In this document: one piece after another, positions 3,238-37,674 of the stretch
How the letters are laid out: each line of letters starts with the position of its first letter
How positions within the stretch are numbered: the first letter of the stretch is position 1
Assembly (NCBI GenBank): GCA_022844265.1
Contig: JALHMA010000011.1
Span: 1-37,674, forward strand
Length of the DNA: 37,674 bases
Origin: Saprospiraceae bacterium
Lineage (GTDB): Bacteria > Bacteroidota > Bacteroidia > Chitinophagales > Saprospiraceae
Reading direction: 5' to 3'
Program-made: the position numbers and the translations under genes
Notes under the pieces: model-generated
What the model was told of the DNA's origin: nothing
The model's database searches: none
The model's input: only the letters and a program-made list of their open reading frames with translations

Positions 3238-3276
3238 TGTTCATTATTGGTTATCGGTGTTGATAATCAAGCCTTT
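3238..3276 (+). repeat. Degenerate copy A of the TAGTTAT / GATAATCAAGC dispersed element
   Basis: The stretch contains CATTATT, GGTTATC and then TTGATAATCAAGC, matching the junction of heptamers and conserved right half seen in the copies at 5335, 14145, 26925 and 33601. Only the part around GGTTATC-GTGTTGATAATCAAGC is well preserved. It overlaps the 3' end of the leucine-rich-repeat gene: the last codons of that gene and its TAA stop are read from the element. Confidence 0.6.
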
Positions 3277-3936
3277 TATTTTTTTAATGTGTTCAAATAA
3301 GATTTTATTAGCAATATCACCATCAATCACATCCATAAATTGTTTGTCATTATCTACAAAAATACTGGTTATTGCTGGATTTAAATCTAATGTAGGCTGT
3401 ATAGATTCCCAGTCATTTAATTCAGCCGAAAAATAACAGCCACTTATTACTAAATCACTTAGAAGATTAAAATTAATGCTGCCGCAGTTCCAAAATTTAA
3501 AATATTTAAGATTTTTTAATTTATTTAAAGGATTAAAATCTATTTTAGAACAAAATAAAATATGTAATTCTTTAAGATTGAGTAATTTTTCTACATTTGC
3601 TAATTCTCTTAAATTATAACAATCTGATATCGAGAGTGCTTCCAAATTAAAAAGATTATCGAAATCAATGGAAGATATTTCGGTACATTCAATAAATTGA
3701 ATTGATTTCAAATTTGTTATTTCCGAAAGCCCTTTCGGAAAATCTTCCCATGTGCAATTCCTGAAGCAAACTTCATTTAAATTTTGTAATAAACTTAAGT
3801 TGGTTACATCAAGAACGAATGAACTATCTATTATGACATCCCGCACCCCAGTGAATTGAACCACTTCATTTGGAATCACATTTTCATGCCCAAGGTTAAT
3901 TTTTAATGAACCAGAACGTTTACAAATCTTAAACAT
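3244..3936 (-). CDS. Leucine-rich-repeat-like protein, AT-rich
   Basis: 230 residues from the ATG at 3936. An earlier in-frame ATG at 3987 would add 17 residues (MIHYYCRLINYK...) that look like translated leader, so I prefer the internal start. Residues ~40-170 are irregular leucine-rich repeats (LSLLQNLNEVCFRNC, EITNLKSIQFIEC, LFNLEALSISDC, LLNLKELHILFC, KLKNLKYFKFWNC), about 21-24 residues each, with a conserved C or N at the turn. There is no signal peptide or membrane helix, so it is probably cytosolic and protein-binding. Base composition is strikingly AT-rich compared with both neighbours, suggesting acquisition from elsewhere. The final residues (GLIINTDNQ) and the stop are encoded by the repeat element at 3238-3276. 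Confidence 0.7.
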   Translation of the reverse strand: MFKICKRSGSLKINLGHENVIPNEVVQFTGVRDVIIDSSFVLDVTNLSLLQNLNEVCFRNCTWEDFPKGLSEITNLKSIQFIECTEISSIDFDNLFNLEALSISDCYNLRELANVEKLLNLKELHILFCSKIDFNPLNKLKNLKYFKFWNCGSINFNLLSDLVISGCYFSAELNDWESIQPTLDLNPAITSIFVDNDKQFMDVIDGDIANKILFEHIKKIKGLIINTDNQ

Positions 3937-4142
3937 TAGTAGTTTTATTATTTTATAGTTTATGAGTCTGCAATAATAATGTATCATTTAAACTTCTCAA
4001 ATCATCCAAAGCACTTTTTGTTTTACCGCTCCTACTCACCCGGCAGAAAAGCCGTTTCCCCTCAAATACTTGTTTATTTGTGCGCCGTGTGTTTATATTA
4101 GTGTCTGATAAACCAATGAAATGGCTATAAATCTACTTCCTT

Positions 4143-5333
4143 ATGAAAAACACCACCCATCCCATACTTATCCTGGCCTCGTTTTTTTGGGCTACCGCCG
4201 GCTTTAGCCAGGTCAACCAACCGTACACGGCCTCCTTTGTCGGGCGGATGGGTGTTGATACCGTGCTGGTGGAGACGTATACTATGATCAACAATCATCT
4301 GTACGGAAAAGCCTTTGTTCGGGTGCCGGAGGATTATATCGGTGAATTCAGCATTCATTTTTACCCGGACGGCAGTATACGGGAGTTCAATGTTTCCGCG
4401 ATGGACCCGTTCAACAGTTCCGTGCCTTTTGCTGCGAAATCCGGCGCATTTGAATACAGGCTGAATATGAATTGCAAAAACGATACCTGCACCTACTATA
4501 ATTCCATAACAGGCGTACCGGATGAAAAGATATACAAACATCCGGCTCCAAAAGTAGATTTTGTAGGCGGCTGGGTTCCTTTTATTTCTCTGATGGAATG
4601 GCAATGCAGGCGGTTGGTGCAATCCGGGCGGCAGGCAATGCCCTTAAAAATGATCAACCACAATATCGGGGTGTACGACATCGGCGTTCATTTCCTGAAT
4701 AAGGATACGGTCATTTTTGGTGGGCCTTTTCTGGAATATACAAAAATCAGGATCGATCCGGCAGGAAAAATCCTCGACATCGACGGCATCGGCACACCCT
4801 GGAATTATTATGTGACCAGTCATGCGCCCATCAATATTGACGAATTTGCCAAAAGAATGGCGAAAACACCCGGAATCGGGATACCTTCCCCGACAGAAAC
4901 GATTCAGGCTAATATGCGGGGCGCAAAGATGAGTCTCACGTACGGAAGACCGTACAAACGCGGCAGAACCATTTTTGGCGGGGTGGTGCCTTACGACACT
5001 TTATGGAGGACCGGCGCAAACGGGCCAACCGTTTTGGATATGCAACACGGCATCAAGATCGGAAATACGGTCATTCCCAAAGGGAAATACAGTATTTATT
5101 CTATTCCAAAAAAGACGGAATGGACGCTTATTTTTAATACCGATCTGACCTCATGGCCCACCGATCCGAACAGAAGTAAAGAATTTGCGCAGGTTACCAT
5201 TCCCGTTGAAAAAAGCAACGATATCAGGCAGCAGTTTACCATTGAAATGGCTGGAACAAAAGACAGGGGTGAAATAAGGTTTTGCTGGGACGATGTTGTG
5301 GCCATTGCGGCGTTTGGGGTGCTTGAGGAATAA
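4143..5333 (+). CDS. Secreted DUF2911 domain protein
   Basis: 396 residues with a clear Sec signal peptide (first ~23 residues, ending GFSQ). The middle (25-250) is a beta-rich region not assigned to a family, with a CKNDTC pair that may form a disulphide. From about residue 253 to 370 it matches DUF2911: RGAKMSLTYGRPYKRGR, then GRTIFGGVVPYDTLWRTGAN, then GKYSIYSIPKKTEWTLIFN. DUF2911 proteins are exported Bacteroidota proteins of unknown function. A lone gene: the upstream spacer (3988-4142) shows no clear promoter, and a TAGTTAT element begins 1 base after the TAA stop. Confidence 0.85.
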   Translation: MKNTTHPILILASFFWATAGFSQVNQPYTASFVGRMGVDTVLVETYTMINNHLYGKAFVRVPEDYIGEFSIHFYPDGSIREFNVSAMDPFNSSVPFAAKSGAFEYRLNMNCKNDTCTYYNSITGVPDEKIYKHPAPKVDFVGGWVPFISLMEWQCRRLVQSGRQAMPLKMINHNIGVYDIGVHFLNKDTVIFGGPFLEYTKIRIDPAGKILDIDGIGTPWNYYVTSHAPINIDEFAKRMAKTPGIGIPSPTETIQANMRGAKMSLTYGRPYKRGRTIFGGVVPYDTLWRTGANGPTVLDMQHGIKIGNTVIPKGKYSIYSIPKKTEWTLIFNTDLTSWPTDPNRSKEFAQVTIPVEKSNDIRQQFTIEMAGTKDRGEIRFCWDDVVAIAAFGVLEE

Positions 5334-5334
5334 A

Positions 5335-5409
5335 TAGTTATTAGTTATTGGTTATTCGTGCTGATAATCAAGCATTTATAATTAATTTAATCTAAACTAA
5401 TATTGACGC
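5335..5409 (+). repeat. Dispersed element, copy B (TAGTTAT heptamers plus conserved right half)
   Basis: Units in strict 7-base register: TAGTTAT (5335-5341), TAGTTAT, TGGTTAT, TCGTGCT and GATAATC (5363-5369), followed by AAGCATTT, an AT-rich stretch and AAACTAATATTGACG. The inverted copy at 14145-14219 matches through the ATATTGACG end. It starts 1 base after the stop of the DUF2911 gene. Confidence 0.85.
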
Positions 5410-5446
5410 TCGGGGTGCATTTCAGATTGCCGCCTGGCAACGTGCG

Positions 5447-5491
5447 CTGTTTATTGACGGGGTGACTTCAAGTCACCCCGTCAATAAACAG
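5447..5491. repeat. Perfect 45-base palindrome
   Basis: CTGTTTATTGACGGGGTGACTT is mirrored exactly on the other side of a single central C (5469), giving a 22-bp stem. It lies between the DUF2911 gene and the alpha/beta hydrolase, both on the plus strand. No T-tract follows, so a classical intrinsic terminator is not obvious. It could be an RNA-level processing or termination hairpin, a protein-binding site or a small mobile palindrome. Confidence 0.85.
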
Positions 5492-5520
5492 CAATCCAGT
5501 TGGCAAAAAAAAACTAGCGT

Positions 5521-14144: not shown

Positions 14145-14219
14145 CGTCAATATTAGTTTGGATTAAATTGATTGCAAATGCTTGATTATCAGCGCTAATA
14201 ACCAATAACTAATAACTAC
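14145..14219 (-). repeat. Dispersed element, copy C
   Basis: Read on the minus strand: G, then TAGTTAT, TAGTTAT, TGGTTAT, TAGCGCT and GATAATC, then AAGCATTTGCAATC, an AT-rich stretch and CTAATATTGACG. Its right half matches copy B almost throughout. It begins directly after the TAA stop of the Tat-type aldo/keto reductase and separates it from its paralogue. Confidence 0.85.
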
Positions 14220-15365
<1,146 letters not shown>

Positions 15366-16382: not shown

Positions 16383-16841
16383 ATGCTGCAACTATCAAGA
16401 ACCAACGCTGAAAACCCCGATTTTATCGAACTGGTGAAACATTTAGACCTCGAACTGGCCGAAAGAGACGGAGCCGAGCACAGTTTTTATGCGCCGTTTA
16501 ATACCATTTCCAACATCAAACACGTGGTACTGGCTTACGAAAATGAAAAGCCCGTCGGTTGCGGCGCCATGAAGGAATACGAACCGGGTACCATGGAAAT
16601 CAAACGCATGTATGTGCTGCCGGAGTGCAGGGGGAAAGGCATCGCTGCCGAAATTCTGGCTGAATTGGAGATATGGGCCAAGGAACTACCTGTCACCAGG
16701 TGCATTTTGGAAACCGGACATAAACAACCCGAGGCGATTGCACTCTACAAAAAATGCGGGTATCAGGTCATTGCGAATTACGGACAATATGTGGCAGTGG
16801 AAAACAGTGTTTGCTTCGAGAAGAGAATTGACGAGGGATGA
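16383..16841 (+). CDS. GNAT-family N-acetyltransferase
   Basis: 153 residues from the ATG at 16383; an upstream in-frame start at 16305 adds 26 hydrophobic residues that do not belong to the family. The acetyl-CoA-binding motif A is complete: MEIKRMYVLPECRGKG with R83-G-K-G-I-A88, followed by the ARG/LYKKCGY helix-strand (EAIALYKKCGYQ) at the C-terminus. Substrate unknown; the small size fits amino-acid or polyamine-type acetyltransferases. The stop TGA lies within the heptamer element at 16833: the last residues read DEG from the unit GAGGGAT. Confidence 0.88.
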   Translation: MLQLSRTNAENPDFIELVKHLDLELAERDGAEHSFYAPFNTISNIKHVVLAYENEKPVGCGAMKEYEPGTMEIKRMYVLPECRGKGIAAEILAELEIWAKELPVTRCILETGHKQPEAIALYKKCGYQVIANYGQYVAVENSVCFEKRIDEG

Positions 16842-16943
16842 GGGACGATGAATGAGGAATGAGGAATGAGGAATGAGGAATGAGGAATGACCGAGCGTGA
16901 TGCCGTGATGCCCCCCAACGTTGATGCTCATTCCTCATCCCTC
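16833..16943. repeat. GAGGAAT heptamer element between convergent genes
   Basis: Nine contiguous 7-base units from 16833: GAGGGAT, GAGGGAC, GATGAAT, five exact GAGGAAT (16854-16888) and GACCGAG. The inverted arm at 16927-16943 reads GAGGGAT, GAGGAAT and GAG on the minus strand. The GNAT gene and the M16 gene both end EG-stop on GAGGGATGA, so the element supplies both stop codons. The middle (about 16896-16926) has GTGATGCC repeated twice and only weak pairing. Confidence 0.85.
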
Positions 16944-18188
16944 AAATATCACCTCCATCGGTAAATACACCAGCGTCGCCGAATTCTCCGCCCTGAAAAT
17001 CCCGTTTGCCGCCCGGTGCATTTCCTCCGGTGTGACGGCTAAATAAGTATCCACTTCTTCGTTCATCAATTCGGCCCGGTCCAGGATTTCATAAAAACCC
17101 AGGTTCTGGGCTTTGTTCAGGATACTCGTTTCCGAAAAAACGATGGTACTTTCAAAGCGGTGCTGGATCTTTTTTAATTCTCGTTCTTCAACGGCTTCCT
17201 TTTTCAGGAGTTCGAGTTCTTCCCAGATGGCGGCGATGGCGTCGTCGATGGCTACACCTTCAGCGGGGCGGCCCTCGATGACCAAGAGTCCCGGGTCGAT
17301 ATTGGCGGTGATATAAGCGTCAATTTGAGAAAACACCTGTTTTTCTTTTAACAGGCGGCGGTATAGCCGGGAGGAATGTCCCTGAGCCAGAATATCGCTG
17401 AGCAGGTCGATAGCGTAAAAATCGGGATCCAGCCGGGCGGGCGTTCGGAAAGCCAGGTAAACGGCCGGCACGGGTACGTTGCCCCGCACTTCCTTGCGGA
17501 TGGGAGCGGTTTGGGGCGGTTCCGGGCTGGGATTGTGCTGTATGGACGGGCCTGCCGGGATGTCGGCAAACCATTTTTCCACCAATTGCAGGGCGTCGGC
17601 GGTGCGGATATTGCCCGCAATACTGAGCACGGCATTGGTGGGTGTGTACCAGTTGCGGTAAAAGGAACGCACATCTTCCAGCGTGGCGCCTTCGATGTGT
17701 TCGGGCGTGAGGCCGATGACCGGCCAGCGATAAGGATGCACGTGGTACATCATTTCGGACAGGTGGTGCCAGCAGTCGCCGTAGGGTTCGTTCAGACAGG
17801 TTTCCTTGAATTCTTCCACCACGACCTTGCGCTGCACATCCAGCGATTTTTTGGAAATACTCAGGGCCAGCATCCGGTCGCTTTCCAGCCAGAGCGCCAC
17901 TTCGAGGTTGTCTGCGGGCACTATTTCATAAAACGTCGTGTAGTCATTGGTGGTGTAGGCGTTGTTTTCGCCCCCGGCGCGCTGGAGCGGGTCGTCGAAA
18001 TCAGGTACATTTTTGCTGCCTGCGAACATCAGGTGCTCGAACAGGTGTGCAAACCCCGTTTTGTCGGCGCGTTCGTCGCGCGACCCGACATAGTAAGTGA
18101 TATTGACGGCGGCTAAAGGCGTGGTGTGGTCTTCATGCACCAGCACACGGAGGCCGTTAGACAGTACGGTACGGGTAAAATCAACCAT
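16935..18188 (-). CDS. M16 (pitrilysin/insulinase-type) zinc peptidase
   Basis: 417 residues, the size of a single-chain M16B subunit. Zinc motif HxxEH at 48-52 (HLFEH), with the third ligand probably Glu125 or Glu126 in VVVEEFKE. The N-terminal domain (10-190) carries the usual NGLRVLVHED start. The C-terminal domain holds the VPAVYLAFRTPARLDPDFYA and LSDILAQGHSSRLYRRL stretches typical of the inactive half. No signal peptide is visible, so cytosolic or exported by another route. It starts 7 bases after the TerC stop, so the two form an operon. Stop supplied by the GAGGAAT element. Confidence 0.92.
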   Translation of the reverse strand: MVDFTRTVLSNGLRVLVHEDHTTPLAAVNITYYVGSRDERADKTGFAHLFEHLMFAGSKNVPDFDDPLQRAGGENNAYTTNDYTTFYEIVPADNLEVALWLESDRMLALSISKKSLDVQRKVVVEEFKETCLNEPYGDCWHHLSEMMYHVHPYRWPVIGLTPEHIEGATLEDVRSFYRNWYTPTNAVLSIAGNIRTADALQLVEKWFADIPAGPSIQHNPSPEPPQTAPIRKEVRGNVPVPAVYLAFRTPARLDPDFYAIDLLSDILAQGHSSRLYRRLLKEKQVFSQIDAYITANIDPGLLVIEGRPAEGVAIDDAIAAIWEELELLKKEAVEERELKKIQHRFESTIVFSETSILNKAQNLGFYEILDRAELMNEEVDTYLAVTPEEMHRAANGIFRAENSATLVYLPMEVIFEG

Positions 18189-19664: not shown

Positions 19665-19712
19665 GGCTGTTTTGTATTGGTTTGAAAATTTGCCGCAAAA
19701 GTATGGAAAATA

Positions 19713-19831
19713 GTGCGAAGTCATCAGTGCGAAGTGCGAAGTCCGTAGAGTCCGCTGTTTCATGCCTTGGAAACCCAAGAGTGAAACGGCGGACTCTACG
19801 GACTGACGACTTCGGACTGACGACTTCGGAC
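19713..19831. repeat. GTCCGAA / GTGCGAA heptamer palindrome, copy F
   Basis: Left arm units GTGCGAA, GTCATCA, GTGCGAA, GTGCGAA and GTCCGTA (19713-19747). On the minus strand the right arm reads GTCCGAA, GTCGTCA, GTCCGAA, GTCGTCA, then GTCCGTA. The inner stem is 19741-19762 with 19782-19803, one mismatch in 22 bp; the loop itself has a CTTGG/CAAG pair. It shares its core (GTCCGTAGAGT..., ending GTTTCA) with copy G at 24020. It starts 2 bases after the stop of the RMD1-type gene. Confidence 0.88.
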
Positions 19832-19833
19832 TT

Positions 19834-20610
19834 TTAAAAAATCTTGCTGATTATCAGGTCAAAAACCTCGATACAGATCAAAATAATGATAATCCATTCC
19901 AGTTTGCTGCTTTCGCGGTGCAGGTAAAGTTCGCGGAAAACGGACAAGTTGTCTTCCACTACTTTGAACGTGTATTCGATTTCACGGAAACGCGTTTGTG
20001 TCTCCAGGGTGCGCGCCAGTCCGCGGTGAATGCGATCGAGGTATTCATCTTCCCAGGTAAGATCGGGGCTGTCAAAAATAAAAAGATTTTCGACAATGCG
20101 GTTTTTGGTGTTCAGGGCGCGACCAATAAAGCGGATCATATTTTTGCGGCTGATACTGATACTGCCTTTGTTTTCCATTTGGGATGTGAAATGTTGCATT
20201 TCCTGCAACAGTTCATGTGCGCGCTGGGAGTAAAAATCGAGCGCTACGGAGTGCGCCACATTGAGCATGGCGATTTTGACCACGTCTTCGGTGAATTTGG
20301 GCACTTGCAGCAAATCGAAACCGAAATGTGGTTCCTGGTCTGGGCGGTGTTCAAGTTCAAAATCGTCGCGCAATTTTTCGGATAGCGGGTGGTCGCAGAA
20401 CGGTTGCAGGAAAACGAGGTTTTGACTCATGTCGGTGTCGCTCATATTGGCAAAAACGACCGCACCGTAGTCAAATGCGTAGAAATAACAGTCTTCATCT
20501 ACCAGGTAAAACAATTCAGAGGGGTTTTCCTGGAGCAGCGACCCTGCATACACCTCTTTGAGGCGCTTGAGGTGCAATTGTTCGGCAATATAAAAGGCTA
20601 CGATTTTCAT
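19834..20610 (-). CDS. RMD1/YagE-family (DUF155) protein
   Basis: 258 residues from the ATG at 20610; the frame extends to 20706, but those 32 residues are low-complexity and read from a repeat-like GGTTTGAT stretch. The C-terminal half has the DUF155 features: a long helix region with YSQRAHELLQEM and NKGSISISRKNMIRFIG, and at the end the hallmark ESSKLEWIIIILICIEV membrane-helix start. Yeast RMD1 relatives are mitochondrial-membrane proteins; the bacterial function is unknown. A C-terminal anchor facing the cytosol is predicted. It may be cotranscribed with the coiled-coil gene downstream. Confidence 0.82.
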   Translation of the reverse strand: MKIVAFYIAEQLHLKRLKEVYAGSLLQENPSELFYLVDEDCYFYAFDYGAVVFANMSDTDMSQNLVFLQPFCDHPLSEKLRDDFELEHRPDQEPHFGFDLLQVPKFTEDVVKIAMLNVAHSVALDFYSQRAHELLQEMQHFTSQMENKGSISISRKNMIRFIGRALNTKNRIVENLFIFDSPDLTWEDEYLDRIHRGLARTLETQTRFREIEYTFKVVEDNLSVFRELYLHRESSKLEWIIIILICIEVFDLIISKIF

Positions 20611-20813: not shown

Positions 20814-20976
20814 GTGAATCGTGAATAGTGAGTAGTGAGTTGTGAATAGTGAGTAGCATCTCGTTAAGGGAATATGGAGAACATTCTTCTAACCAGATGC
20901 TATTCATTATTCACAACTCACTACTCACTATTCACTACTCACCACTCACTATTCACCACTCACGATTCACGATTCC
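20814..20976. repeat. GTGAATA / GTGAGTA heptamer palindrome between divergent genes
   Basis: Left arm 20814-20855: GTGAATC, GTGAATA, GTGAGTA, GTGAGTT, GTGAATA and GTGAGTA. The right arm (20902-20976, minus strand) has eleven units of the same types, and the innermost units occur in the same order as on the left. Inner stem GCATCTCGTTA (20856-20866) with TAACCAGATGC (20890-20900), one mismatch. It occupies most of the 402-base spacer between the RMD1-type and the symporter gene. Unlike most other copies it lies between two 5' ends. The rest of that spacer holds a GGTTTGA-type repeat (about 20617-20653) and a promoter core (20981). Confidence 0.88.
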
Positions 20977-22075: not shown

Positions 22076-24019
22076 ATGGCAATGATGAAAGATTTGTATC
22101 GCCGTTGGGTGCCCTCGCACCTGCGCTTTTTAGTGGTCGTTCACCTGATATTGTTGAGTATTTTCAGCTTGTTCCGGTATGTGACCCTGCTGTACAACCG
22201 CCCCTCCTATTTTTTTCAGGTCGACCGCACCCTGACGGTACGCCAGGCATTTAAAATTGGCCTTTGGTTTGATATTACGGTGGCGAGTTATGCGCTGCTG
22301 CTGCCGTATCTACTGCTCACGGCGGCGTTTATCTGGCCCCGCGAACACCGCAGGCTTTTTGCTTTCACCCGTTTTTATTGCGGCGCCGTTATCCTGGTCT
22401 CCCTGATTATATGTGCGGCAGATGTTCCGTATTTCAACTTTTTCAACTCCCGGCTGACCACCGCTGCCGTACACTGGAAGAACAATTTGCAGGTGGCCAA
22501 GTACATCCTTTCCGAGGTGAAATATTATCCTTTTATCCTCATTTGTGCATTTTGTATCTGGGGGACGGGGCGACTGATGCGGAAAATCTGGCATCGGACC
22601 TGGGCGCCCAACAGCCATTCGCCCAATAACCGGATGGTGGCTACGGCCATGGCATCCGTACTGATGCTGGGCGGCCTCTGGGGTGGCGCAACGCCGAAAA
22701 CGCCCGATATGAAAAGGGCTACTTTCAGCAATGACGGTTTTATTAATCAATTGACACTCAATCCTGTACATACCTGGTTTGACTCGTATTTCGACTTCGA
22801 TATTCATGTCGATAACATTCAAAAAGCCATCAAAAAAGTGCAATACGAATTGGGCATTCAACAGCCGGCTGCCGCTTCTCCCATTGCACGCGAACACCGT
22901 TACCCGCAGTCTGCCAAGCCCATGAATGTGGTACTGGTGTTGATGGAAAGTATGAGCGCCAATCGAATGGGCGTTTATGGAAATCCTAAAAACCTTACAC
23001 CTGGCCTGGACAGCCTGGCCCGCAGCAGTATTTTTTTCGATAACTGTTATTCCAACGGCATACACACCAACGCCGGCCTGTATAGCTCTATTTACGGTAT
23101 GCCGATCATTATGATGCAGCACCCGATGAACAATGGTCGTTCGGAATACCTGGAGTTTACAGGGCTGCCCGTCACTTTGCGCAAAGAAGGTTACATCACG
23201 CAGTTTTTCTGCACACACCCCAAAACCTTTGACAACCTGGATGTTTTCCTGCAAAAAAACGGTTACGACCATATCAGTGATCTGGCTGACTACCCGCCGG
23301 AAGTAGTGGCTAATTCATGGGGTGTAGGCGACGAAACCCTGCTGGAACACGCTTTCCAGAACATGGATAGCCTGGCGTCGGATCCGAGTGGCAAACCGTT
23401 TTTCTCTACCATCCTGACCATCACGACGCATCCGCCGTTTACCCTGCCCGCTTTTACAAAATTCAAGCCGCGCAGTACAGATCCGATTGAGATTACCTAC
23501 GAATACTCGGACTGGGCGATCAAAAACTTCATGGATTCCTGCTCGCGCCAGCCCTGGTACAACAACACCATTTTTGTATTTGTCGGCGATCACGGGGTAA
23601 ATCTCCCCGGTGCTTATGACGTGCCTTTGTCCTACAACCATGTGCCGATGATCATCCATGCGCCCGGCTTGTTCGAACAGCCCGAGGTGCGGCATCAATT
23701 GGCCAACCAAACGGATATTTTCCCGACGGTGATGGGCCTACTCCGGCAGGATTATGTGCAGAATACCCTGGGTTATGACCTTTTTCAGGAAAAACGACCC
23801 TTTGCTTTCTTTTCCCAGGATCATAAAATGGGTGTTGTCAATGAGCGCTTCCTGTACGTTGCGCGTAAATCGGGCAGAGAAACCCTGTATGATTACCGCA
23901 GCGGCTCTTTGGAAGACCTCAGCCACTTGTATCCGGCTTTGGTGGACAGCATGAAAAATTACGCCTGCTCCCACTTGCAGGTGGCGCAGTGGATGATTGA
24001 AAACAACAAGACTAAGTAA
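22076..24019 (+). CDS. LtaS-type membrane sulfatase-fold (alkaline-phosphatase superfamily) enzyme
   Basis: 647 residues. About five N-terminal membrane helices (to ~205) are followed by a periplasmic sulfatase-fold domain (~283-600). Metal and catalytic residues match the LtaS pattern: Glu291 (VLVLMESMSANRMG), the nucleophile Thr331 (GIHTNAG) and Asp505-His506 (FVGDHG). LtaS enzymes transfer phosphoglycerol; in Gram-negatives the relatives modify lipids, glycans or periplasmic glucans with phosphoglycerol or phosphoethanolamine. The exact substrate is not predictable. Alternative starts at 22082 and 22085 are also ATG. The stop TAA is followed without a gap by the GTCGTCA heptamer element. 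Confidence 0.88.
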   Translation: MAMMKDLYRRWVPSHLRFLVVVHLILLSIFSLFRYVTLLYNRPSYFFQVDRTLTVRQAFKIGLWFDITVASYALLLPYLLLTAAFIWPREHRRLFAFTRFYCGAVILVSLIICAADVPYFNFFNSRLTTAAVHWKNNLQVAKYILSEVKYYPFILICAFCIWGTGRLMRKIWHRTWAPNSHSPNNRMVATAMASVLMLGGLWGGATPKTPDMKRATFSNDGFINQLTLNPVHTWFDSYFDFDIHVDNIQKAIKKVQYELGIQQPAAASPIAREHRYPQSAKPMNVVLVLMESMSANRMGVYGNPKNLTPGLDSLARSSIFFDNCYSNGIHTNAGLYSSIYGMPIIMMQHPMNNGRSEYLEFTGLPVTLRKEGYITQFFCTHPKTFDNLDVFLQKNGYDHISDLADYPPEVVANSWGVGDETLLEHAFQNMDSLASDPSGKPFFSTILTITTHPPFTLPAFTKFKPRSTDPIEITYEYSDWAIKNFMDSCSRQPWYNNTIFVFVGDHGVNLPGAYDVPLSYNHVPMIIHAPGLFEQPEVRHQLANQTDIFPTVMGLLRQDYVQNTLGYDLFQEKRPFAFFSQDHKMGVVNERFLYVARKSGRETLYDYRSGSLEDLSHLYPALVDSMKNYACSHLQVAQWMIENNKTK

Positions 24020-24141
24020 GTCGTCAGTCCGAAGTCGTCAGTCCGAAGTCCGTAGAGTACACCGTTTCACTTTTGGTATTTCTAAACATGAAACGGTGTA
24101 CTCTACGGACTTCGCACTTCGGACTGACGACTGATGACGAC
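24020..24141. repeat. GTCGTCA / GTCCGAA heptamer palindrome, copy G
   Basis: Left arm GTCGTCA, GTCCGAA, GTCGTCA, GTCCGAA and GTCCGTA (24020-24054). On the minus strand the right arm is GTCGTCA, a 3-base TCA insert, GTCGTCA, GTCCGAA, GTGCGAA and GTCCGTA. The inner stem, 24045-24069 with 24089-24113, is 25 bp perfect with a 19-base loop. Both flanking convergent genes end TAA directly followed by GTCGTCA, so the element exactly fills the spacer. Core shared with copy F. Confidence 0.92.
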
Positions 24142-25560
24142 TTACCTAGAGCCAGTTGCCCACAACAGCCCGGCTTCCGTTTTCCGGTATTCGGCTGCCA
24201 GTTTCAGGAACTTCACCTGGGCATCCAGCCAGCGTTGTTCGCGGGTATTGATGAGGAAAACAGAACTTTCTCCCTGGTTAAATTTTTCTGTTTCGCCTTC
24301 CAGCAGGGTCAGGTAGTTTCGGGTAATATCCCGGTACAGTACCACCTGATTGCGGAGGTTGTCCAGATCATTGGCATATTGGCGGACTTTATTTTCAATA
24401 GTCTGGCTTTTTTGCTGGATATCGAGTACTGTTTGTGCAATTTTTACTTGCGTTACCTGCCAGTCGCCCCGCGCTTTGCGGTTGAAAATAGGATAACTGA
24501 AATTCAGTCCCCATTTAATATCGTTGGCAAGTACCCCAACGCCTTCCGTGTTACTTGTTGGGAAAAACTCCCAACCGGAGCCCAGGAGGTTGTAATTCAG
24601 GTCGAGTACCGGTTTCCTTTTCTCCATTTTCAAACGACGCTCCACTTCCAGGTTTTGGCGTTTTGCCTCGTACAGGCGCAGTTCAGGATGGTTCACCCGG
24701 GCCTGTTGTACCAGTTCTTCCCGTACGGGTAGGTTTGGAACGGCGTTTTCTGCTTCGGAGAGGACTGGAGGCGTCGGCATTTGTTCCAATGCGAGCGTCT
24801 GATTGTCAGTAATCCAGAGAAAATTGCGCAGTGCCAGGCTTGCATTTTGCATGTCGACGCCGGCAAAATTGACATCCAGCAGCCGGTTTTGTACCTGGAT
24901 AAACGTTTCGATGGTATCGATAGCCGGTTTATCGCCCTGTAAAAAACTTTCGCGCAATGCCTCGTGCCGGATCCGCGACTGGCGGAGTGCAGATTCATAA
25001 ATACGCAACTGGTTGCCGGCCACAACCCAGGTCCAATAGGTTTTGGCTGCCTCGAACATCAAATCATTGAGCAGCAGTTCGCGTTCGGCCTCTGCTCCCT
25101 GTAGTCCGATCCGGGATTGTCGCAGCGCAGCGCGCCTTTCATCCAGCAGCAAACCTTGTCCCAGCGACCAGTTGAAACCCAGCGTGGCCTGGCCATTGGC
25201 CGGCAGGGTAGACTCTGTATTCAGGAAATCGCCGGAGGCCAGGTTGTAAGCGCCTTTTAATTCAAAACCTGCCCAGGTCGGCAGTTTTACGCCGGCTTCG
25301 GTATACTGGAAATACGTTTTTCCACTAAAATTTTTGGAATAAAAATCAGAGTAAGCCTTCGGGTCAAAACCGCCTTTTGCACGCAACAGGGTAGAGGCCG
25401 CCATGTCGCGGTACAGGTCGGCTTGCCGGGCGACAGGATGGCTTTCCAGCACTTGCTGCCTGAAATCCGACCATTCCAGCACCTGTGCGCGGCTGCTGAT
25501 ACACAGGGTCAGCAGTACGACAGCCAAGGTCCATTTTATGCGATTTTGGGGAGTCCTCAT
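24142..25560 (-). CDS. TolC-family outer membrane efflux protein
   Basis: 472 residues with a signal peptide (ending ISSRAQ). Two OEP-type repeats are recognisable as long helical hairpins, each with alternating strand parts (SDFRQQVLESHPVARQA at the start; VREELVQQARVNHPELRLYEAK in the middle; KIAQTVLDIQQKSQTIENK late). It forms the outer-membrane tunnel of a tripartite system. It is the last gene of a three-gene minus-strand operon, and its start overlaps the HlyD gene by four bases. Confidence 0.92.
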   Translation of the reverse strand: MRTPQNRIKWTLAVVLLTLCISSRAQVLEWSDFRQQVLESHPVARQADLYRDMAASTLLRAKGGFDPKAYSDFYSKNFSGKTYFQYTEAGVKLPTWAGFELKGAYNLASGDFLNTESTLPANGQATLGFNWSLGQGLLLDERRAALRQSRIGLQGAEAERELLLNDLMFEAAKTYWTWVVAGNQLRIYESALRQSRIRHEALRESFLQGDKPAIDTIETFIQVQNRLLDVNFAGVDMQNASLALRNFLWITDNQTLALEQMPTPPVLSEAENAVPNLPVREELVQQARVNHPELRLYEAKRQNLEVERRLKMEKRKPVLDLNYNLLGSGWEFFPTSNTEGVGVLANDIKWGLNFSYPIFNRKARGDWQVTQVKIAQTVLDIQQKSQTIENKVRQYANDLDNLRNQVVLYRDITRNYLTLLEGETEKFNQGESSVFLINTREQRWLDAQVKFLKLAAEYRKTEAGLLWATGSR

Positions 25561-26918: not shown

Positions 26919-26924
26919 ACTATT

Positions 26925-27000
26925 TAGTTATTCGTTATTGGTTATTGGTTATTTGTATTGATAATCAATCATTTACAAATAGTTTAGCCAAAACTAATTT
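26925..27000 (+). repeat. Dispersed element, copy D
   Basis: TAGTTAT (26925-26931), TCGTTAT, TGGTTAT, TGGTTAT, TTGTATT and GATAATC in 7-base register, then AATCATTTACAAATAGTTT and AGCCAAAACTAATTT. It lies between the ABC gene and the HlyD gene, inverted relative to their transcription, so here it is inside the leader of HlyD rather than next to a stop. Confidence 0.85.
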
Positions 27001-27037
27001 TGCTTGATTACTTATTTAGTTGATGTGGTTCGAATGA

Positions 27038-28890: not shown

Positions 28891-30018
28891 ATGGTAACTT
28901 GTTTAAGACTGCAACCTACAAACTTCTCATTGCACAACTATCTTTACGCAAAAATTGCAATCTTGAAACTACAGGAACGACTTGATTTATTAGCCGAACT
29001 GGGTCACTACCTCCGCGCGGGCGGAGATGAAGACCTGGATGCAGCGGTGCAGCAATCATCCATTGAAAATCAATGGTTTACCGAGGAAAATATTCGCAGC
29101 GCACTGAAAGCCATTGCAGAGAAATTCCTGGATCGCGATAAATTGGCCGCCTGGGCTGCCCAATATCCGATGGCCGATCCGGGATACCCGGAAAAAACGG
29201 TCGCTCTGATTATGGCCGGCAATATTCCGCTGGTGGGATTTCACGACTGGTTGTGCGTTTTTGTGGCGGGGCAGCGCGCCAAGGTAAAACTATCCGATAA
29301 AGACAAGCGCCTCTTGCCGCTATTGGTACAGAAAATGGGGCACTGGCGCAAGGATTCCTGGGCGTATACCGAGTTTTTGTCGGACAATGACCGCCTGAAA
29401 GATTTTGACGCCGTTATCGCGACGGGAAGCAACAATACGGCGCGTTATTTCGAACAATATTTCGGGAAATACCCACACATTATCCGCCGCAACCGAAACA
29501 GTGTGGCTGTGCTGACCGGGTTGGAAACTATTCCAGAGCTGTACGCCCTGGGCCGCGATATTTTTTCTTATTTCGGTCTGGGTTGCCGCAATGTCAGTAA
29601 ATTGTATGTGCCGCATGGCTACCACTTCGATACGCTGCTCGAAACCCTGCACGAATACCGGGAGATGATTCTCCACAACAAGTACAAGAACAATTTCGAT
29701 TACAATTTCACCTTGTACATCATCAATAACATACCGCATAAAAACAACGGATGTTTATTGTTGAAAGAAGATACTTCTTTACAGGCACGTATTGCGTCGG
29801 TGCATTACGAATACTACGATGATCTCCATGATCTTGATGCACAGTTAGCAGACCATAAAAATGATATTCAATGCGTGGTGAGCAATGTGCAGTTACCGCA
29901 ATTCCAGGTTTTACCGTTCGGTCAATCGCAGGAACCCGGACTGCATGACTATGCAGACGGCGTGGACATCATGCAGTTTTTATCGGCGTTGAATTTTGTG
30001 CGGGAAAAAGCCGTATAG
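28891..30018 (+). CDS. Acyl-CoA reductase (LuxC-type)
   Basis: Full-length LuxC/PF05893-type protein. Family-typical segments: PGYPEKTVALIMAGNIPLVG, IATGSNNTARYFEQYF, YFGLGCRNVSKLYVPHGYHF and a conserved NNIPHKNNG loop; Cys in GLGCRNVSK is the candidate catalytic cysteine. It reduces fatty acyl-CoA/ACP to aldehyde (known for LuxC; in Bacteroidota the role is uncertain). The family usually starts KLQER...; a TTG at 28963 gives exactly that, with a near-consensus TATCTTTA 17 bases before it, so the 24 residues from 28891 may be untranslated. Stop TAG overlaps a heptamer element. Confidence 0.85.
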   Translation: MVTCLRLQPTNFSLHNYLYAKIAILKLQERLDLLAELGHYLRAGGDEDLDAAVQQSSIENQWFTEENIRSALKAIAEKFLDRDKLAAWAAQYPMADPGYPEKTVALIMAGNIPLVGFHDWLCVFVAGQRAKVKLSDKDKRLLPLLVQKMGHWRKDSWAYTEFLSDNDRLKDFDAVIATGSNNTARYFEQYFGKYPHIIRRNRNSVAVLTGLETIPELYALGRDIFSYFGLGCRNVSKLYVPHGYHFDTLLETLHEYREMILHNKYKNNFDYNFTLYIINNIPHKNNGCLLLKEDTSLQARIASVHYEYYDDLHDLDAQLADHKNDIQCVVSNVQLPQFQVLPFGQSQEPGLHDYADGVDIMQFLSALNFVREKAV

Positions 30019-30276
30019 TGTTTGGTGTATGGTGTTTAGTGTTTAGTGTTTGGGGCGCTTCGCCCTTGGCATCAGCCCCCGACCCCTAAAGGGGAGTGCA
30101 TCGCAATAAATTAAAATTTATATCTTAAAGTACAGATTATCAATCTATTGCGATGCACTCCCCTTTAGGGGTCGGGGGCTGATGCCAAGGGCGAAGCGCC
30201 CCAAACACTAAACACTAAACACCAAACACTGCCAAAGGCGGAGCGCCCCAAACACTAAACACCATACACCAAACAC
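30018..30276. repeat. GTGTTTA heptamer element with perfect 78-bp inverted repeat
   Basis: Left units GTGTTTG, GTGTATG, GTGTTTA, GTGTTTA and GTGTTTG (30018-30052) lead into a GC-rich core. The arms 30031-30108 and 30146-30223 are identical inverted copies over 78 bases. The 37-base loop is AT-rich. A further partial arm follows (30231-30276), with the same heptamer order as the left end and a slightly diverged GGAGCGCCCC core. Thus it has two right arms and one left arm. It fills the spacer between two convergent genes, and the acyl-CoA reductase stop overlaps it. Confidence 0.95.
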
Positions 30277-30278
30277 CA

Positions 30279-31438: not shown

Positions 31439-32131
31439 ATGCGTTTTGATATTATATCCGTTCTGCCGGAATTGTTGGAAAGTCCTTTAAATCACTCCAT
31501 TATGAAGCGGGCCAAAGATAAAGGGCTGCTCGAAGTGTACCTGCATCAATTGCGCGACTATGCCACCGGCAAACACAAACAGGTGGATGATTACCAGTTT
31601 GGCGGCGGCGCAGGCATGGTCATGAAACCCGAACCGATTGCTGCCTGCATCGAACAATTGATGTCTGAACGCAATTACGACGAAATTATTTACACTTCGC
31701 CGGACGGACAGTGCCTCGATCAGCAACTTTGTAACCGCCTGAGCATGAAGCAGAATGTCATCATTCTTTGTGGCCATTATAAAGGTATCGACGAACGCAT
31801 CCGGCAGAAATACATCACGATGGAAATCAGTATCGGCGATTATGTGCTCTCCGGTGGCGAACTGGCCGCCGCCGTGCTGGTGGACTCCATTGGCCGGCTC
31901 ATTCCCGGTGTTTTGAATGACGAAACTTCCGCATTGTTCGATAGTTTTCAGGATGATTTGCTCGCGCCGCCGGTTTACACCCGCCCGGCAGAATGGGAAG
32001 GTATGAAAGTTCCCGACGTCTTGCTGTCAGGCCACGAAAAAATGATAGATGACTGGCGGCACGACCAGAGTATGGAGCGGACAAAAGCGCGCCGGCCGGA
32101 TCTCTGGGAAAGATTCCAGAATGGTGTTTAG
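31439..32131 (+). CDS. trmD: tRNA (guanine-37-N1)-methyltransferase TrmD
   Basis: 230 residues, the normal TrmD length. SPOUT trefoil-knot signatures: the N-terminal [33 protein letters not shown], the SAM-knot segment [12 protein letters not shown] and [16 protein letters not shown]. It methylates G37 of tRNAs reading CNN, preventing frameshifting. In many bacteria it sits in a ribosomal-protein operon with rpsP/rimM/rplS, but here it stands alone. Stop TAG is read from the GTGTTTA heptamer (last residues NGV). Confidence 0.97.
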
Positions 32132-32242
32132 TGTATGGTGTTTTGGGTACTTCGCTTTTGGCGTTAGAGTGCATTTTGGCCAAATTACATTCTAACGCCA
32201 AAAGCGAAGCACACTAAACACTAAATACCATACACTAAACAC
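32124..32242. repeat. GTGTTTA heptamer palindrome after trmD
   Basis: Left units GTGTTTA, GTGTATG and GTGTTTT (32124-32144). The right end (minus strand) reads GTGTTTA, GTGTATG, GTATTTA and GTGTTTA. The core CTTCGCTTTTGGCGTTAGA (32150-32168) pairs exactly with 32191-32209. The heptamer flavour is the same as the element at 30018, but the core is unrelated. It supplies the trmD stop. Confidence 0.88.
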
Positions 32243-32276
32243 ATTTTTTTGCTTAGTTAAAATTTTCTGTGTTGTA

Positions 32277-33395: not shown

Positions 33396-33473
33396 GGAGG
33401 TTGTAGCTCAGTTGGTTAGAGCGCAGGTTTGTGGTTCCTGAGGTCGGGGGTTCGAGACCCCTCATCCTCCCCA
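33396..33473 (+). tRNA. tRNA-His (GTG)
   Basis: Full cloverleaf with encoded CCA (33471-33473). G-1 (33396) pairs with C73 (33470), the histidine identity feature. D-stem GCTC/GAGC; anticodon GTG at 33431-33433 in the loop TTGTGGT; T-arm GGGGG, TTCGAGA, CCCCT. Two unusual U-U oppositions: position 5 with 68 in the acceptor stem and 31 with 39 at the base of the anticodon loop. Confidence 0.95.
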
Positions 33474-33480
33474 GAAAAAA

Positions 33481-33513
33481 GAGTCATCCCGAACATTCGG
33501 GGTGGCTCTTTTT
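33481..33513 (+). terminator. Intrinsic terminator of tRNA-His
   Basis: GAGTCATCCC pairs with GGGGTGGCTC (two G-U pairs) around a short loop, immediately followed by TTTTT, starting 7 bases after the tRNA end. Confidence 0.85.
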
Positions 33514-33530: not shown

Positions 33531-33685
33531 ACACGGATAAAAAGGATGAAACACGGATTTCTTAAATCCGTGTCTCATCCTTTTTAAATCTTCATGGAAA
33601 ACTAGTTTTGGTTAAATTATTTGCAAATGCTTGATTATCAACACTGATAACCAATAACTAATAACCAATAACTACTTATCCGTGT
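33531..33685. repeat. Nested palindromes: 22-bp hairpin and element E framed by ACACGGATAA
   Basis: ACACGGATAA (33531-33540) is mirrored by TTATCCGTGT (33676-33685). Inside lies a separate hairpin, 33539-33560 with 33564-33585, 22 bp with one mismatch and the loop CTT, whose arms also contain ACACGGAT. Between that hairpin and the outer right arm sits dispersed copy E. The layout looks like an element inserted into, or joined to, an older palindrome. Confidence 0.8.
33601..33674 (-). repeat. Dispersed element, copy E
   Basis: Minus strand: TAGTTAT, TGGTTAT, TAGTTAT, TGGTTAT, CAGTGTT, GATAATC, then AAGCATTTGCAAATAATTT and AACCAAAACTAGT. The right half is close to copies C and D. GGTTATCA/TGATAATC and ATTTGCAAAT form small internal palindromes. 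It is 22 bases downstream of the DUF1573 stop. Confidence 0.85.
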
Positions 33686-34869: not shown

Positions 34870-36183
34870 ATGGAAGTCTATTTTTACCTGCTGGCTGCAT
34901 TGGTGTTGGTTGCTCTAATCGTTTTGTTTACCAGACATCAAGGAAATAACCGTATTCAAGCCATTGATAACGAACAATTTGTGCCCAGGGAGTTATATAC
35001 GGCCACCCAGACGCAGTTAGAAACCCTGCGTGCGGAGTGGCAGGGAAAAGAACAGGAATTGCGCGATGCCCATGCGCAATTGGCCGCCCGGGAACAGCAG
35101 ATTTATCATTTGCAGCAAACCCTTCAAACCCAAAAAGGAGAGGTGGAGCAGTTGCAGGTGAAGTTCAAAACGGAATTTGAAAATATCGCCAACCGCTTGC
35201 TGGAAGAAAAATCGCAGCGCTTTACGGTACAAAATGCCCAGCAACTGCAAACGGTTTTGAGTCCGCTGCGCGAAAAAATCAAAGAATTTGAAGAACACGT
35301 AGACAAAAAATTTCTGGAAGAAACCCGTGAAAAAGCAAGTCTCAAACACGAACTCCAACTGCTGCATACCCTCAATCAGCAACTCAGCCAGGACGCCCAC
35401 CACCTGACCAATGCCCTGAAGGGCCAGAATAAAATGCAGGGCGACTGGGGTGAAATGCAACTTGAAACCCTGCTGGAGCACTCCGGACTTCAAAAAGGTA
35501 TTCACTTTTTGATGCAGGCTACATTCCGCGATGACGACGGCGCCGCCAAACGCCCCGATTTTATCATACAACTTCCTGACAACAAACAACTTGTCGTGGA
35601 TGCGAAAGTGTCGCTAACTGCATTTGAACGCTATTTCAATACAGATGACCCTGCGCAGCGCGACCAGCATTTGCGGGCGCATGTCACGAGCATCCGCAAC
35701 CACGTCGACAACCTGAGCCGCACGAATTACCAGATGTTGTATCAAATCAACACGCCCGATTACCTCCTGCTTTTTGTGCCGCTGGAAAGCGCACTGAGCG
35801 CCGCTTCGCAGGCCGATCCGAAACTGTTCACAGATGCGCTGGATCGCAATATCGTGCTGGTTACGACGAGTAGCCTGCTGGCAACCATGCGCACCGTGGC
35901 GCACCTCTGGAAACAGGAAAAACAGACGCGTTCGGTGCTCGAAATTGCCCGGCACAGTGGCCTCCTGTACGATAAGTTCGTGGCTTTTGTAGACGACCTG
36001 AAAACCATCGGCGCCCGGCTGGACAATGCCCGCCTCGCTTATGACGATGCCATGCACAAACTGACCCATGCCGCCCGTCCCGGTGACACACTCATTGGTA
36101 AAGCGGAGAAAATCAGGGAGTTAGGGGCCAGAGCGACCAAGTCGCTGCCGCAGGATCTGGTGGATGAAGCACTTGGGGAATAA
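34870..36183 (+). CDS. rmuC: DNA recombination protein RmuC
   Basis: 437 residues. One N-terminal membrane helix (YFYLLAALVLVALIVLF), a coiled coil (~45-190) and the RmuC core (~195-400): MQGDWGEMQLETLLEHSGL, RPDFIIQLPDNKQLVVDAKV, the conserved DAKVSL catalytic-like strand and TSSLLATMRTVAHLWKQE. RmuC limits recombination at inverted repeats in E. coli (established knowledge), of some interest because the next spacer is a large inverted repeat. Convergent with the HlyD gene. Confidence 0.95.
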   Translation: MEVYFYLLAALVLVALIVLFTRHQGNNRIQAIDNEQFVPRELYTATQTQLETLRAEWQGKEQELRDAHAQLAAREQQIYHLQQTLQTQKGEVEQLQVKFKTEFENIANRLLEEKSQRFTVQNAQQLQTVLSPLREKIKEFEEHVDKKFLEETREKASLKHELQLLHTLNQQLSQDAHHLTNALKGQNKMQGDWGEMQLETLLEHSGLQKGIHFLMQATFRDDDGAAKRPDFIIQLPDNKQLVVDAKVSLTAFERYFNTDDPAQRDQHLRAHVTSIRNHVDNLSRTNYQMLYQINTPDYLLLFVPLESALSAASQADPKLFTDALDRNIVLVTTSSLLATMRTVAHLWKQEKQTRSVLEIARHSGLLYDKFVAFVDDLKTIGARLDNARLAYDDAMHKLTHAARPGDTLIGKAEKIRELGARATKSLPQDLVDEALGE

Positions 36184-36187
36184 GTTG

Positions 36188-36360
36188 GTGATGATAGCAC
36201 GGCCCTGAAATGTGCGGGGTCGTAAGACCCGCGCACGGCGGTAACGTCTGGCCCAAGAATGAGTGATAACCCATGGCTTTAGTTTGTCGATAAGCTAAGC
36301 GTTACCGCCGTGCGCGGGTCTTACGACCCCGCACTTTCTTCAAAGCCATGCTACCATCAC
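36188..36360. repeat. 173-bp inverted-repeat element filling the rmuC/hlyD spacer
   Basis: The inner arms 36212-36246 and 36300-36334 are perfect inverted copies of 35 bases (GC-rich, beginning GTGCGGGGTCGTAAGACCCG); the loop is 53 bases. The outer arms 36188-36209 and 36339-36360 match at 18 of 22 positions. The four differences are all transitions that become G-U pairs in minus-strand RNA but A-C mismatches in plus-strand RNA. No heptamers. The right end overlaps the HlyD stop; the left begins 5 bases after the rmuC stop. Confidence 0.93.
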
Positions 36361-37658
36361 CGCCGCACACTCGCAAAAATCTGCTCGCTAATCCGCTGCA
36401 AAAAGCCCTTATCGTCAGTAATAATTTCGGCTTTTCCCTGTAGTTGTTGTTCAAACTGAATCTCCCGGCCATAACTGGTGCGCAGGGTATTGTTTTTATT
36501 CACCGGCAGTGCGACGAGGATGGAGTATTGATTGTCTTTTGGAACCAGCGATTTCGAAACAATCAGTCCGCTGATCGTTCCAAATTCATGGTAGGGGTAG
36601 TTGTCCAATTTCAGGATCACCTTTTGTTTTTCTTTGACTTTCCCGCTGCCGGCGATAGGCAGCGATACCCGCCCGATAATTTTGTCGTTTTGCAGCGGCA
36701 CTACGGTCATTACCTGGTCGCCTTGCCGGACATACTGCTGCGCTGTAATTCCGTTGAGCGAGATTTTACCGTCCATCGGTGTCAGGAGCAGGTAGGTTTG
36801 TTTCCATTTACTCACATTGCTGCGGAGTGTGTTCAGGCTGCCTGACAATCGGCTGGAAGCCGAAGATGTGGTTTCCTGTTGTCCAAATGATGCGCTGCTG
36901 ATGTTGTTTTGCAGGCTGATAATTTCGCGCCGCCTTTGTAAAATATTCTCTTCATACTGGTCGCGCTGGCGTTCGAGGTCTGCTAACCTGGTGCGTTCTT
37001 TTTCAAAATCCACACGGGAAGTAATGCCCTGTTCGAAGAGGTCTTTTTGTTTCAGGTACAGGTCTTCAGCTGTTTTTAATTGGTCATTGGTACGTTTCAG
37101 CGCTTTTTGTTCAAATACGATACTTTGTTGCAACTGACTGATTTGCTGATTAATGGAATTGATGTTGGATTGTACCGAGGCGCTTCTATTGTCTCTTCCA
37201 AACTTGAAATCACTCAGGATTCGGACAAAATCGGCATAATCGCCTTGTAATTCACCAAGCGTCAGGCTGTCGGGTTGCTGCACATTTCGGAAATCTTCCG
37301 TTTTCAATTGTTGCCAGGCGCCCAGGCAGGAATCGAGCAGGAGCACATCGCGGTAATTGGCGGTGCTTTGCATCACAGCCAGCAGCTGATTGGCCTTGAC
37401 CCGGGCGGTATCGCTGACCAGCAAGCGGGCAATACGACCGTCGGTGCGGGCGATGATATCTAAAGGTGGTGTAGCGGTGGTAACAATCACTTTTGCCTCC
37501 ACCACATCAGGGTAACGCACCAGCCAGGCCGCGGCGAGCATCATCCCGAAACCAAAAAGTACAATAGTTGTACCCCACCGCACCAGCCAGCCGGGCGGGG
37601 TGCCTAAAATCTCCTGCACATCTTCGGAGCGAAGTTCGACGTATTCGCTATCTGCCAT
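36357..37658 (-). CDS. HlyD-family secretion adaptor (second system)
   Basis: 433 residues. The cytosolic start (~1-27) is followed by one membrane helix (TTIVLFGFGMMLAAAWLVRY, ~29-48), a lipoyl half (IIARTDGRIARLLVSDTARV), a long coiled-coil (~145-280) and the barrel domain (SLNGITAQQYVRQGDQVMTV) to the end. It differs in sequence from the adaptor at 25557. Such adaptors usually follow a peptidase-containing ABC exporter, which would lie upstream, beyond the right edge. The stop lies within the inverted repeat at 36188. Confidence 0.92.
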   Translation of the reverse strand: MADSEYVELRSEDVQEILGTPPGWLVRWGTTIVLFGFGMMLAAAWLVRYPDVVEAKVIVTTATPPLDIIARTDGRIARLLVSDTARVKANQLLAVMQSTANYRDVLLLDSCLGAWQQLKTEDFRNVQQPDSLTLGELQGDYADFVRILSDFKFGRDNRSASVQSNINSINQQISQLQQSIVFEQKALKRTNDQLKTAEDLYLKQKDLFEQGITSRVDFEKERTRLADLERQRDQYEENILQRRREIISLQNNISSASFGQQETTSSASSRLSGSLNTLRSNVSKWKQTYLLLTPMDGKISLNGITAQQYVRQGDQVMTVVPLQNDKIIGRVSLPIAGSGKVKEKQKVILKLDNYPYHEFGTISGLIVSKSLVPKDNQYSILVALPVNKNNTLRTSYGREIQFEQQLQGKAEIITDDKGFLQRISEQIFASVRR

Positions 37659-37664
37659 TTTTTT

Positions 37665-37674
37665 AGTGTTTGGT
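37665..37674 (+). repeat. Start of another GTGTTTG heptamer element at the window edge
   Basis: The last bases read AGTGTTTGGT, the same junction that begins the elements at 30018 and 32124. It starts 7 bases before the HlyD ATG (37658, minus). Only this much is visible, so it is an inference from identity to the other copies. Confidence 0.4.

Follow-up and report, generated by a model that had tools for sequence, protein, structure and literature searches.

Palindromes armed with tandem seven-base words, and a separate one-armed element, between the genes of a Saprospiraceae bacterium

Contig JALHMA010000011.1 of a Saprospiraceae bacterium (37,674 nucleotides, hereafter the window; contig C11 of a draft genome of 6.05 Mb and 561 contigs, labelled G000) carries tandem units of seven bases between its genes, at some sites as two inverted arms around a stem. 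A first-pass annotation had listed twelve such sites as one system of palindromes in several sequence flavours, which raises the question whether these arrays are real, whether they belong together and what builds and moves them. Our analysis shows dispersed palindromes that are genuine, dense and strangely regular as a class and, separate from them, a heptamer-bearing miniature inverted-repeat transposable element (MITE).

Two kinds of heptamer-bearing element

Arrays were located by a tandem-periodicity scan with a threshold of score 16 or score 12. At score >=12 the window held 10 arrays of period 7 against 0 in each of 100 Markov-1 shuffles, and periods 4-6 and 8-12 gave 0 arrays, bearing out the tandem units reported at the listed sites. 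The scan was also applied to a G000 sample of 41 stretches (the window and 40 further ones, drawn from the longest contigs and two contigs holding Y1 transposase genes; 811,186 bp, about 13% of the draft genome). At score 16 this sample gave 122 arrays of period 7 vs 0 in one shuffle; periods 8, 9 and 10 gave 26, 9 and 8 arrays and periods 3-6 none, while the 89 arrays of period 14 and 42 of period 21 are largely harmonics. The unit length of seven is dominant, not exclusive. At score 12, 198 arrays merged into 120 sites and the shuffle gave none, so the suspicion that shuffled sequence would be equally dense in arrays can be set aside; the density claimed for the window, one per 3.4 kb, becomes about one site per 6.8 kb in the sample. 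In whole-genome searches, four tandem copies of GTKWNTN were found at 697 and 703 places in G000, the reversed pattern at 19 and 14, and 16 of the 40 genomes searched, G000 included, matched the fourfold pattern. Clustering by word sorts the 198 arrays into 16 groups, of which the five largest contain 171. Within a word, variation is mostly confined to one position or two, GTGTTT[G/A/C] and GTGAGT[A/G/C/T] being examples.

The twelve sites do not form one system, since two unlike things had been merged (Table 1). Sites 19713, 20814, 24020, 30018 and 32124 are palindromes, with inverted-repeat scores of 120, 143, 131, 331 and 132 compared to 13-23 for one shuffled sequence of matching lengths. 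At 16833 a long array faces a weak partner (score 31 vs 19 shuffled), and the five sites 3238, 5335, 14145, 26925 and 33601 showed no palindrome (18-37 vs 12-24 shuffled). Arm symmetry thus holds for only part of the list, and the sites of the TAGTTAT flavour are copies of another element, which has one arm and TA duplications. At the scale of the genome, heptamer palindromes in several flavours with flavour-specific cores are found far above chance, as had been proposed.

These palindromes make up dispersed families with shared cores: GTGAGTN words occur with GGCAT..CGTTAG, GTGTTTR with GGGGCGCTTCGCCTTTGGC, ATGAGTT with TGGAGTTTCAGGCTGG and GTTATTN with CGTGTGGT, with some swapping. They also have one polarity, as 64 of 78 neighbouring array pairs run from G-rich to C-rich, 9 are both C-rich, 5 are both G-rich and 0 run from C-rich to G-rich. 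Another 105 long inverted repeats lie in spacers without an over-threshold heptamer array. A strong period was seen in 16 of these (seven of 8 bp, six of 10 bp, two of 7 bp and one of 9 bp), and the words GATATTNN, GGTTGATNN and CACATAGNN recur among the 105 (by eye). G-rich left halves number 74 and C-rich ones 27, a weaker polarity than in the heptamer palindromes. Nested palindromes are present. At L042:16883-17008 a palindromic insert of 124 bp interrupts an arm of another palindrome; comparison with the uninterrupted arm suggests that no target was duplicated.

The two arms of a palindrome mirror each other beyond what a common flavour gives. Within flavours, identity between arms in cis was 0.935, compared to 0.910 when partners were shuffled (sd 0.004; at most 0.927 in 10,000 permutations; 59 of 63 elements, the 4 of mixed or unclassed flavour being left out), and the excess was clearest in the GTGAGT and GTGTTT flavours. 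The unit order said to be kept across the arms is therefore kept statistically, but not at each site. Two of the cores had changes on both sides in 9/30 and 9/29 pairs; among 500 shuffles these values were reached 4 times and once, respectively. On the sense strand, G-U and A-C mispairs were equally frequent at 60:60 (25 co-directional elements; 4/63 elements with long centres left out); as selection at the RNA level should favour G-U, the pairing is more likely kept at the DNA level than at the RNA level. In GTGTTTR palindromes of other genomes, those of Bacteroidota show that the inner two variable letters agree across the arms at 0.88 vs 0.52 for all pairs (24 elements), and in those of Planctomycetota at 0.69 vs 0.54 (34 elements).

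Copies of the one-armed element were picked by the TGATAATCAA core and a GTTATY unit before it, which gave 26 distinct copies in the sample. The element has the ends AGTAG/CTACT, a TA duplication, no open reading frame (ORF) and a heptamer block at one end. Terminal inverted repeats are present on the left (TAAGTAGTT) in 13/26 copies, on the right (ACTTA) in 9/26 and on both sides in 5/26, and the unit order is partly common (TTA then TTG in 12 copies, TTA-TTG-TCA in 6). Two copies are nested in an arm of another palindrome (L029:12135-12228 in G000 and L209:5231-5317 in G048); in both, the intact opposite arm represents the empty site with a single TA and the filled site has two. Because of this TA duplication, seen against an empty site, we read the element as a TA-target MITE, separate from the palindromes. 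TA-target MITEs are of the IS630/Tc1-mariner type. The ends, the TA duplication and the lack of an ORF agree with the traits of such MITEs, whereas the heptamer block does not, nor does the transposase count: the related DDE_3 (PF13358) had 0 matches in G000 and 1 in G048, and was found in 13 of 42 genus genomes (own included; this set was also used for the core-model and SbcD counts). One relative, G008, has 52 DDE_Tnp_1 and 25 DDE_3 matches, many of them identical, which is an insertion-sequence expansion, and few palindromes in the 20 kb sampled.

Turnover between relatives and position relative to genes

Four relatives (G048, G015, G043 and G046; 90, 84, 83 and 83% identity to G000 in one protein) share synteny with most of the window beyond 17 kb. 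The comparison of orthologous spacers suggested by the first-pass annotation showed presence, absence and family exchange. At 19713, 24020 and 30018 all five syntenic species have a palindrome or a word-built repeat, with unlike words. Spacer 30018 holds palindromes in 5/5 species with four words, among them the 8-bp GTGTTTTR in G048 around a homologous-looking core (by eye); spacer 19713 has three words across the species, and one variant unit of G015 sits in both G015 arms. The element at 20814 is missing in G015, G043 and G046. In a different spacer, G048 has a GTGAGT-type palindrome where G000 has an ATGAGTT-type one, and one more palindrome of G048 corresponds to an empty site in G000. 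In two non-heptamer palindromes the far arm is an inverted copy of the adjoining gene's last codons, one in G015 (L075:1537-1645) where G000 has plain spacer, the other in G048 (L092 near 2235; no ortholog for comparison). This suggests that arms can be copied locally, the inverted gene ends being a sign of local inverted duplication.

Amplification of the families is limited by lineage. The best E-values of the GTGAGT-core model were 3e-25 in G000 and 1e-23 in G048; G046, G043 and G015 had 1e-15 at best, and the remaining 37 of the 42 genus genomes did not match. Among the matches listed, and with both strands counted, the GTGTTT-core model had 72-102 matches in the same five genomes and 1-4 in six others. 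A pattern scan of genome contigs for GTGTTTR palindromes, which is no phylum census, gave among the matches listed at least 81 stretches from at least 25 organisms: Saprospiraceae, other Bacteroidota, Planctomycetota, Desulfobacterota, a 'Deltaproteobacteria' record, one Chromatiales and one unplaced bacterium. The cores, as read from the matched stretches, differ between phyla. Away from the selected matches, period-7 array pairs of other genomes were 8 G-rich to C-rich, 3 both C-rich, 1 both G-rich and 0 C-rich to G-rich. Six Desulfobacterota loci (L129, L147, L166, L177, L178 and L200) hold GTGTTTR palindromes with common conserved outer flanks containing an TTTTTACGA motif, and on account of these flanks they look like one homogeneous mobile family. 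A search of plasmid and phage carriers with one GTGTTTR element, covering the GTGTTTR family only, gave no match.

With genes called throughout by a crude longest-ORF scheme, 89 of the 120 array sites were assigned to spacers, 19 lay in called ORFs and 12 elsewhere. The sites are placed next to stop codons: the median distance is 4 bp on the stop side and 37 bp on the start side, with 74/111 and 24/67 within 15 bp, and arrays occupy 29/93 convergent, 53/240 co-directional and 7/89 divergent spacers. When heptamer and other long inverted repeats are counted together the numbers are 61/90, 118/244 and 18/84, so that long hairpins fill about two thirds of the sampled convergent spacers in this genome. 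An inverted repeat enters the ORF at 15 gene ends, and in 6 of the 15 the words encode the last residues and the stop (by eye). At L036:12419-12864 heptamer arrays flank an ORF whose start resembles ribosomal protein L23 (by eye), meaning that the elements reach a ribosomal operon.

Origin and upkeep of the palindromes

We propose, with moderate confidence, that the palindromes are non-autonomous DNA elements resembling MITEs or repetitive extragenic palindromes (REPs), which have spread as copies and been kept palindromic by copying from arm to arm. Of their several families, every one combines a stem core with arms in which a short word, mostly of 7 bp, is repeated in tandem. Palindrome copies would enter by some route and then persist where they are least harmful, just past stop codons. 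Hairpins arising in replication may allow the polymerase to change strands, so that one arm is rewritten on the template of its partner, and slippage may lengthen and trim the word arrays; strand switching and slippage together would leave the arms mirrored while the flavours turn over.

Several observations weigh against this interpretation. No mobiliser was found among the candidates examined, and the nested insertions gave no clean insertion boundary for heptamer palindromes. All palindromes found with an inverted gene end were of the non-heptamer kind, one of them lacking an ortholog, and the core models also give unrelated long hairpins scores of up to about 62 bits. Mirroring is uneven, the cis excess being small within flavours D, E and F, and it is not universal, since 17 Desulfobacterota elements showed none (inner-letter agreement 0.38 vs 0.52 for all pairs). 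Flank symmetry outside the arms is weak (p 0.026).

Tentatively, a wider process can be envisaged: one process at the DNA level, common to distant phyla, would build hairpins from short words by adding 7-bp (less often 8-10-bp) units at the hairpin foot, with the G-rich strand on the 5' arm, and by copying arm to arm. The abundance of intergenic heptamers would then be its footprint, and one machinery, HUH-related or at the replication fork, would set the unit length.

It is doubtful that the hairpins are instead functional gene ends, i.e. bidirectional transcription barriers or mRNA-stabilising 3' structures that are selected while their sequence is free to change, although the counts for convergent spacers and the retention of word-built repeats at 19713, 24020 and 30018 despite unlike words fit this explanation. 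A simple scan for the canonical intrinsic terminator pattern (hairpin and T run) found it in 1/92 heptamer spacers and 13/418 spacers overall. Eight relatives nearly lack palindromes, the sense strand has no G-U bias, and placement on the stop side is equally expected if insertions elsewhere get lost.

We find it unlikely that the palindromes are REPIN-like elements (REP doublets forming hairpins) mobilised in trans by HUH Y1 transposases, whether REP-associated tyrosine transposases (RAYTs) or IS200-like, of the same genome. Their hairpin form and G/T-rich 5' foot resemble REPs. Of the GTAG or CGTC foot that REPs have beside the stem, GTAG lies inside the word array of the GTGAGT consensus, and the GTGTTT and ATGAGTT consensus sequences do not have it (by eye). 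Y1 presence follows the palindromes: in the eight genus members without a Y1 match, each sampled over 21-40 kb, 1/101 spacers has a long inverted repeat, vs 250/707 (84/289 excluding G000) in ten members with Y1, some of whose stretches were chosen because they hold Y1 genes. G007, judged like G008 on 20 kb, has Y1 and long inverted repeats in 0/5 spacers. Among the matches listed, Y1 is present in 23/25 genomes with GTGTTTR palindromes (3 of the 25 already counted as genus members), compared to 42.8% of species in PMC6006769. This link is a correlation without cognacy and uncorrected for phylogeny. The first-pass annotation had suggested a search for a RAYT-like gene, and no cognate RAYT flanked by palindrome copies emerged: at none of 50 distinct Y1 loci, some of them cut by contig ends, does a period-7 array come closer to the Y1 ORF than 469 bp, the distance at L211, although other palindromes adjoin many (by eye). 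Y1 genes are also few (3 matches in G000) relative to the many families, and the draft genome HSG2 has three matching loci and no Y1 match. At L002 a small GGTTTCA-word palindrome, below threshold, is found about 600 bp from the Y1 gene, past another ORF (by eye). The Y1 genes in L206, L209, L211, L215, L217, L221 and L223 are flanked by palindromes that differ from gene to gene (by eye).

Other candidates do not track the palindromes. Loss of SbcCD, letting palindromes survive, was rejected because an SbcD-type match is present in 38/42 genus genomes (5 over cut-off), palindrome-rich and palindrome-poor alike. Reverse transcriptase had no match in the palindrome-rich G000, G048, G015 and G043 and 4 in G046, and DDE_Tnp_1 had 1 in G000 and is present in 7/8 Y1-less genomes. 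No autonomous gene between arrays was recognised either, as 13 ORFs flanked on both sides in the sample included no recurrent family (names by eye, no profile search).

Plain slippage, with every site an independent microsatellite-like expansion, is very improbable; heptamers are common in prokaryotes (PMC6344855) and array lengths vary here, but the shared cores, the 64:0 polarity, the arm mirroring, the family exchange and the stop-codon placement all speak against it, so the arrays are not the ordinary slippage products without arm symmetry considered earlier. For TAACTGA in Beggiatoaceae a role in translational regulation has been proposed, with an RNA-binding protein recognising sites near start codons. 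Such a role is most improbable here given the distances and the 7/89 occupied divergent spacers above, although the GTTATCA arrays are TAACTGA on the other strand (PMC4679880). The idea that the words supply stop codons was weighed by eye and dropped.

Relation to known repeats and features of the window

Small dispersed repeats in heptamer arrays of cyanobacteria were reportedly described by Elhai and others in 2008. As to Bacteroidota, the first-pass annotation knew of no description of the palindrome-plus-heptamer form. Tandem heptamers as such were already on record, since PMC4679880 reports TAACTGA heptamers in Beggiatoaceae, Cyanobacteria and five Bacteroidetes, mostly as direct repeats close to start codons and, in BOGUAY, in one inverted case. 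Reverse-complemented and rotated, GTTATCA, a unit present in this genome, reads TAACTGA, and GTTATCA arrays are accordingly tandem intergenic heptamers of that word; the described repeats sit mostly upstream of start codons, however, and the palindromes at stop codons. Nor is the pairing of palindrome and heptamer new in itself, as inverted pairs of GGGAATC heptamer arrays, one array per strand, number 70 and 75 in two Xanthomonas strains, and Nostoc has the heptamer repeat GGGGAYT (both from PMC4692102). The Xanthomonas and Nostoc repeats are tandem and intergenic like those here, but what is described there is a single word per genome, as opposed to many words, family cores, mirroring and exchange in orthologous spacers. 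Like REPs, bacterial interspersed mosaic elements and REPINs, the palindromes here are short, dispersed and extragenic, occur in many copies at 3' ends and in convergent spacers, and are nested as mosaics. Unlike REPs and REPINs they have arms of tandem 7-bp words and several families per genome, and no Y1 gene was found flanked by them; for lack of a cognate RAYT we do not file them under REP/REPIN. Searches of the openly licensed literature, outside which most subscription papers lie, gave no description of several word-armed palindrome families with such polarity, mirroring and exchange.

Across a wide range of prokaryotes, the tandem unit found most often between genes is the heptamer (PMC6344855). 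Many intergenic heptamers here are the arms of dispersed palindromes with one polarity, lineage-specific families, mirroring and exchange between species, and there is a fair chance that this class may lead to the reason behind intergenic heptamers. The look-alikes in distant phyla and the species differences at the same spot offer a new approach to the question why seven-base repeats are so abundant in bacteria, and make it testable what fixes the length of 7, how arms get rewritten and what moves the elements.

Table 1. Heptamer-bearing sites of the window
Feature	Position	Strand	Remark
One-armed TAGTTAT element, degenerate copy (site 3238)	3229..3290	+	only GTTATCGGTGTTGATAATCAAGC part clear
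One-armed TAGTTAT element (MITE), copy	5335..5401	+	directly after stop codon
One-armed element, copy (site 14145)	14152..14223	-	left end TAAGTAG
GAGGRAT array 16833-16890 and short weak inverted partner 16927-16944	16833..16944	.	
Palindrome (site 19713), words AGTGCGA/AGTCCGA	19709..19835	.	orthologous spacers compared
Palindrome, words GTGAGT/GTGAAT	20814..20975	.	GGCAT..CGTTAG family core (model R1)
Palindrome (site 24020), words AGTCCGA/AGTCGTC	24016..24145	.	between convergent genes
One-armed element, copy (site 26925)	26923..27014	+	right end ATTACTTA
GTGTTTR palindrome	30018..30278	.	right half partly duplicated; between convergent genes
GTGTTTR palindrome (site 32124)	32120..32245	.	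matches model R3
One-armed element, copy (site 33601)	33598..33678	-	left end TAAGTAG
GTGTTTR array start	37665..37674	.	cut by contig end; array continues in syntenic G048 and G015 spacers

The window also contains palindromes without words. A short perfect one at 5446-5492 includes ATTGACGGGGTGACTTCAAGTCACCCCGTCAAT, and the same sequence is present at L004 (2558) and L017 (3003); as it recurs at other loci, it is another dispersed REP-like repeat without words. A long palindrome lacking heptamer words (36188-36360, score 132) lies between convergent genes, and word-built palindromes occupy this spacer in G048 and G015. At 33397-33510 a tRNA gene, the one match of the window to an Rfam family above the gathering score, is followed by an apparent canonical terminator (short hairpin and T run; by eye), which is unlike the word palindromes.

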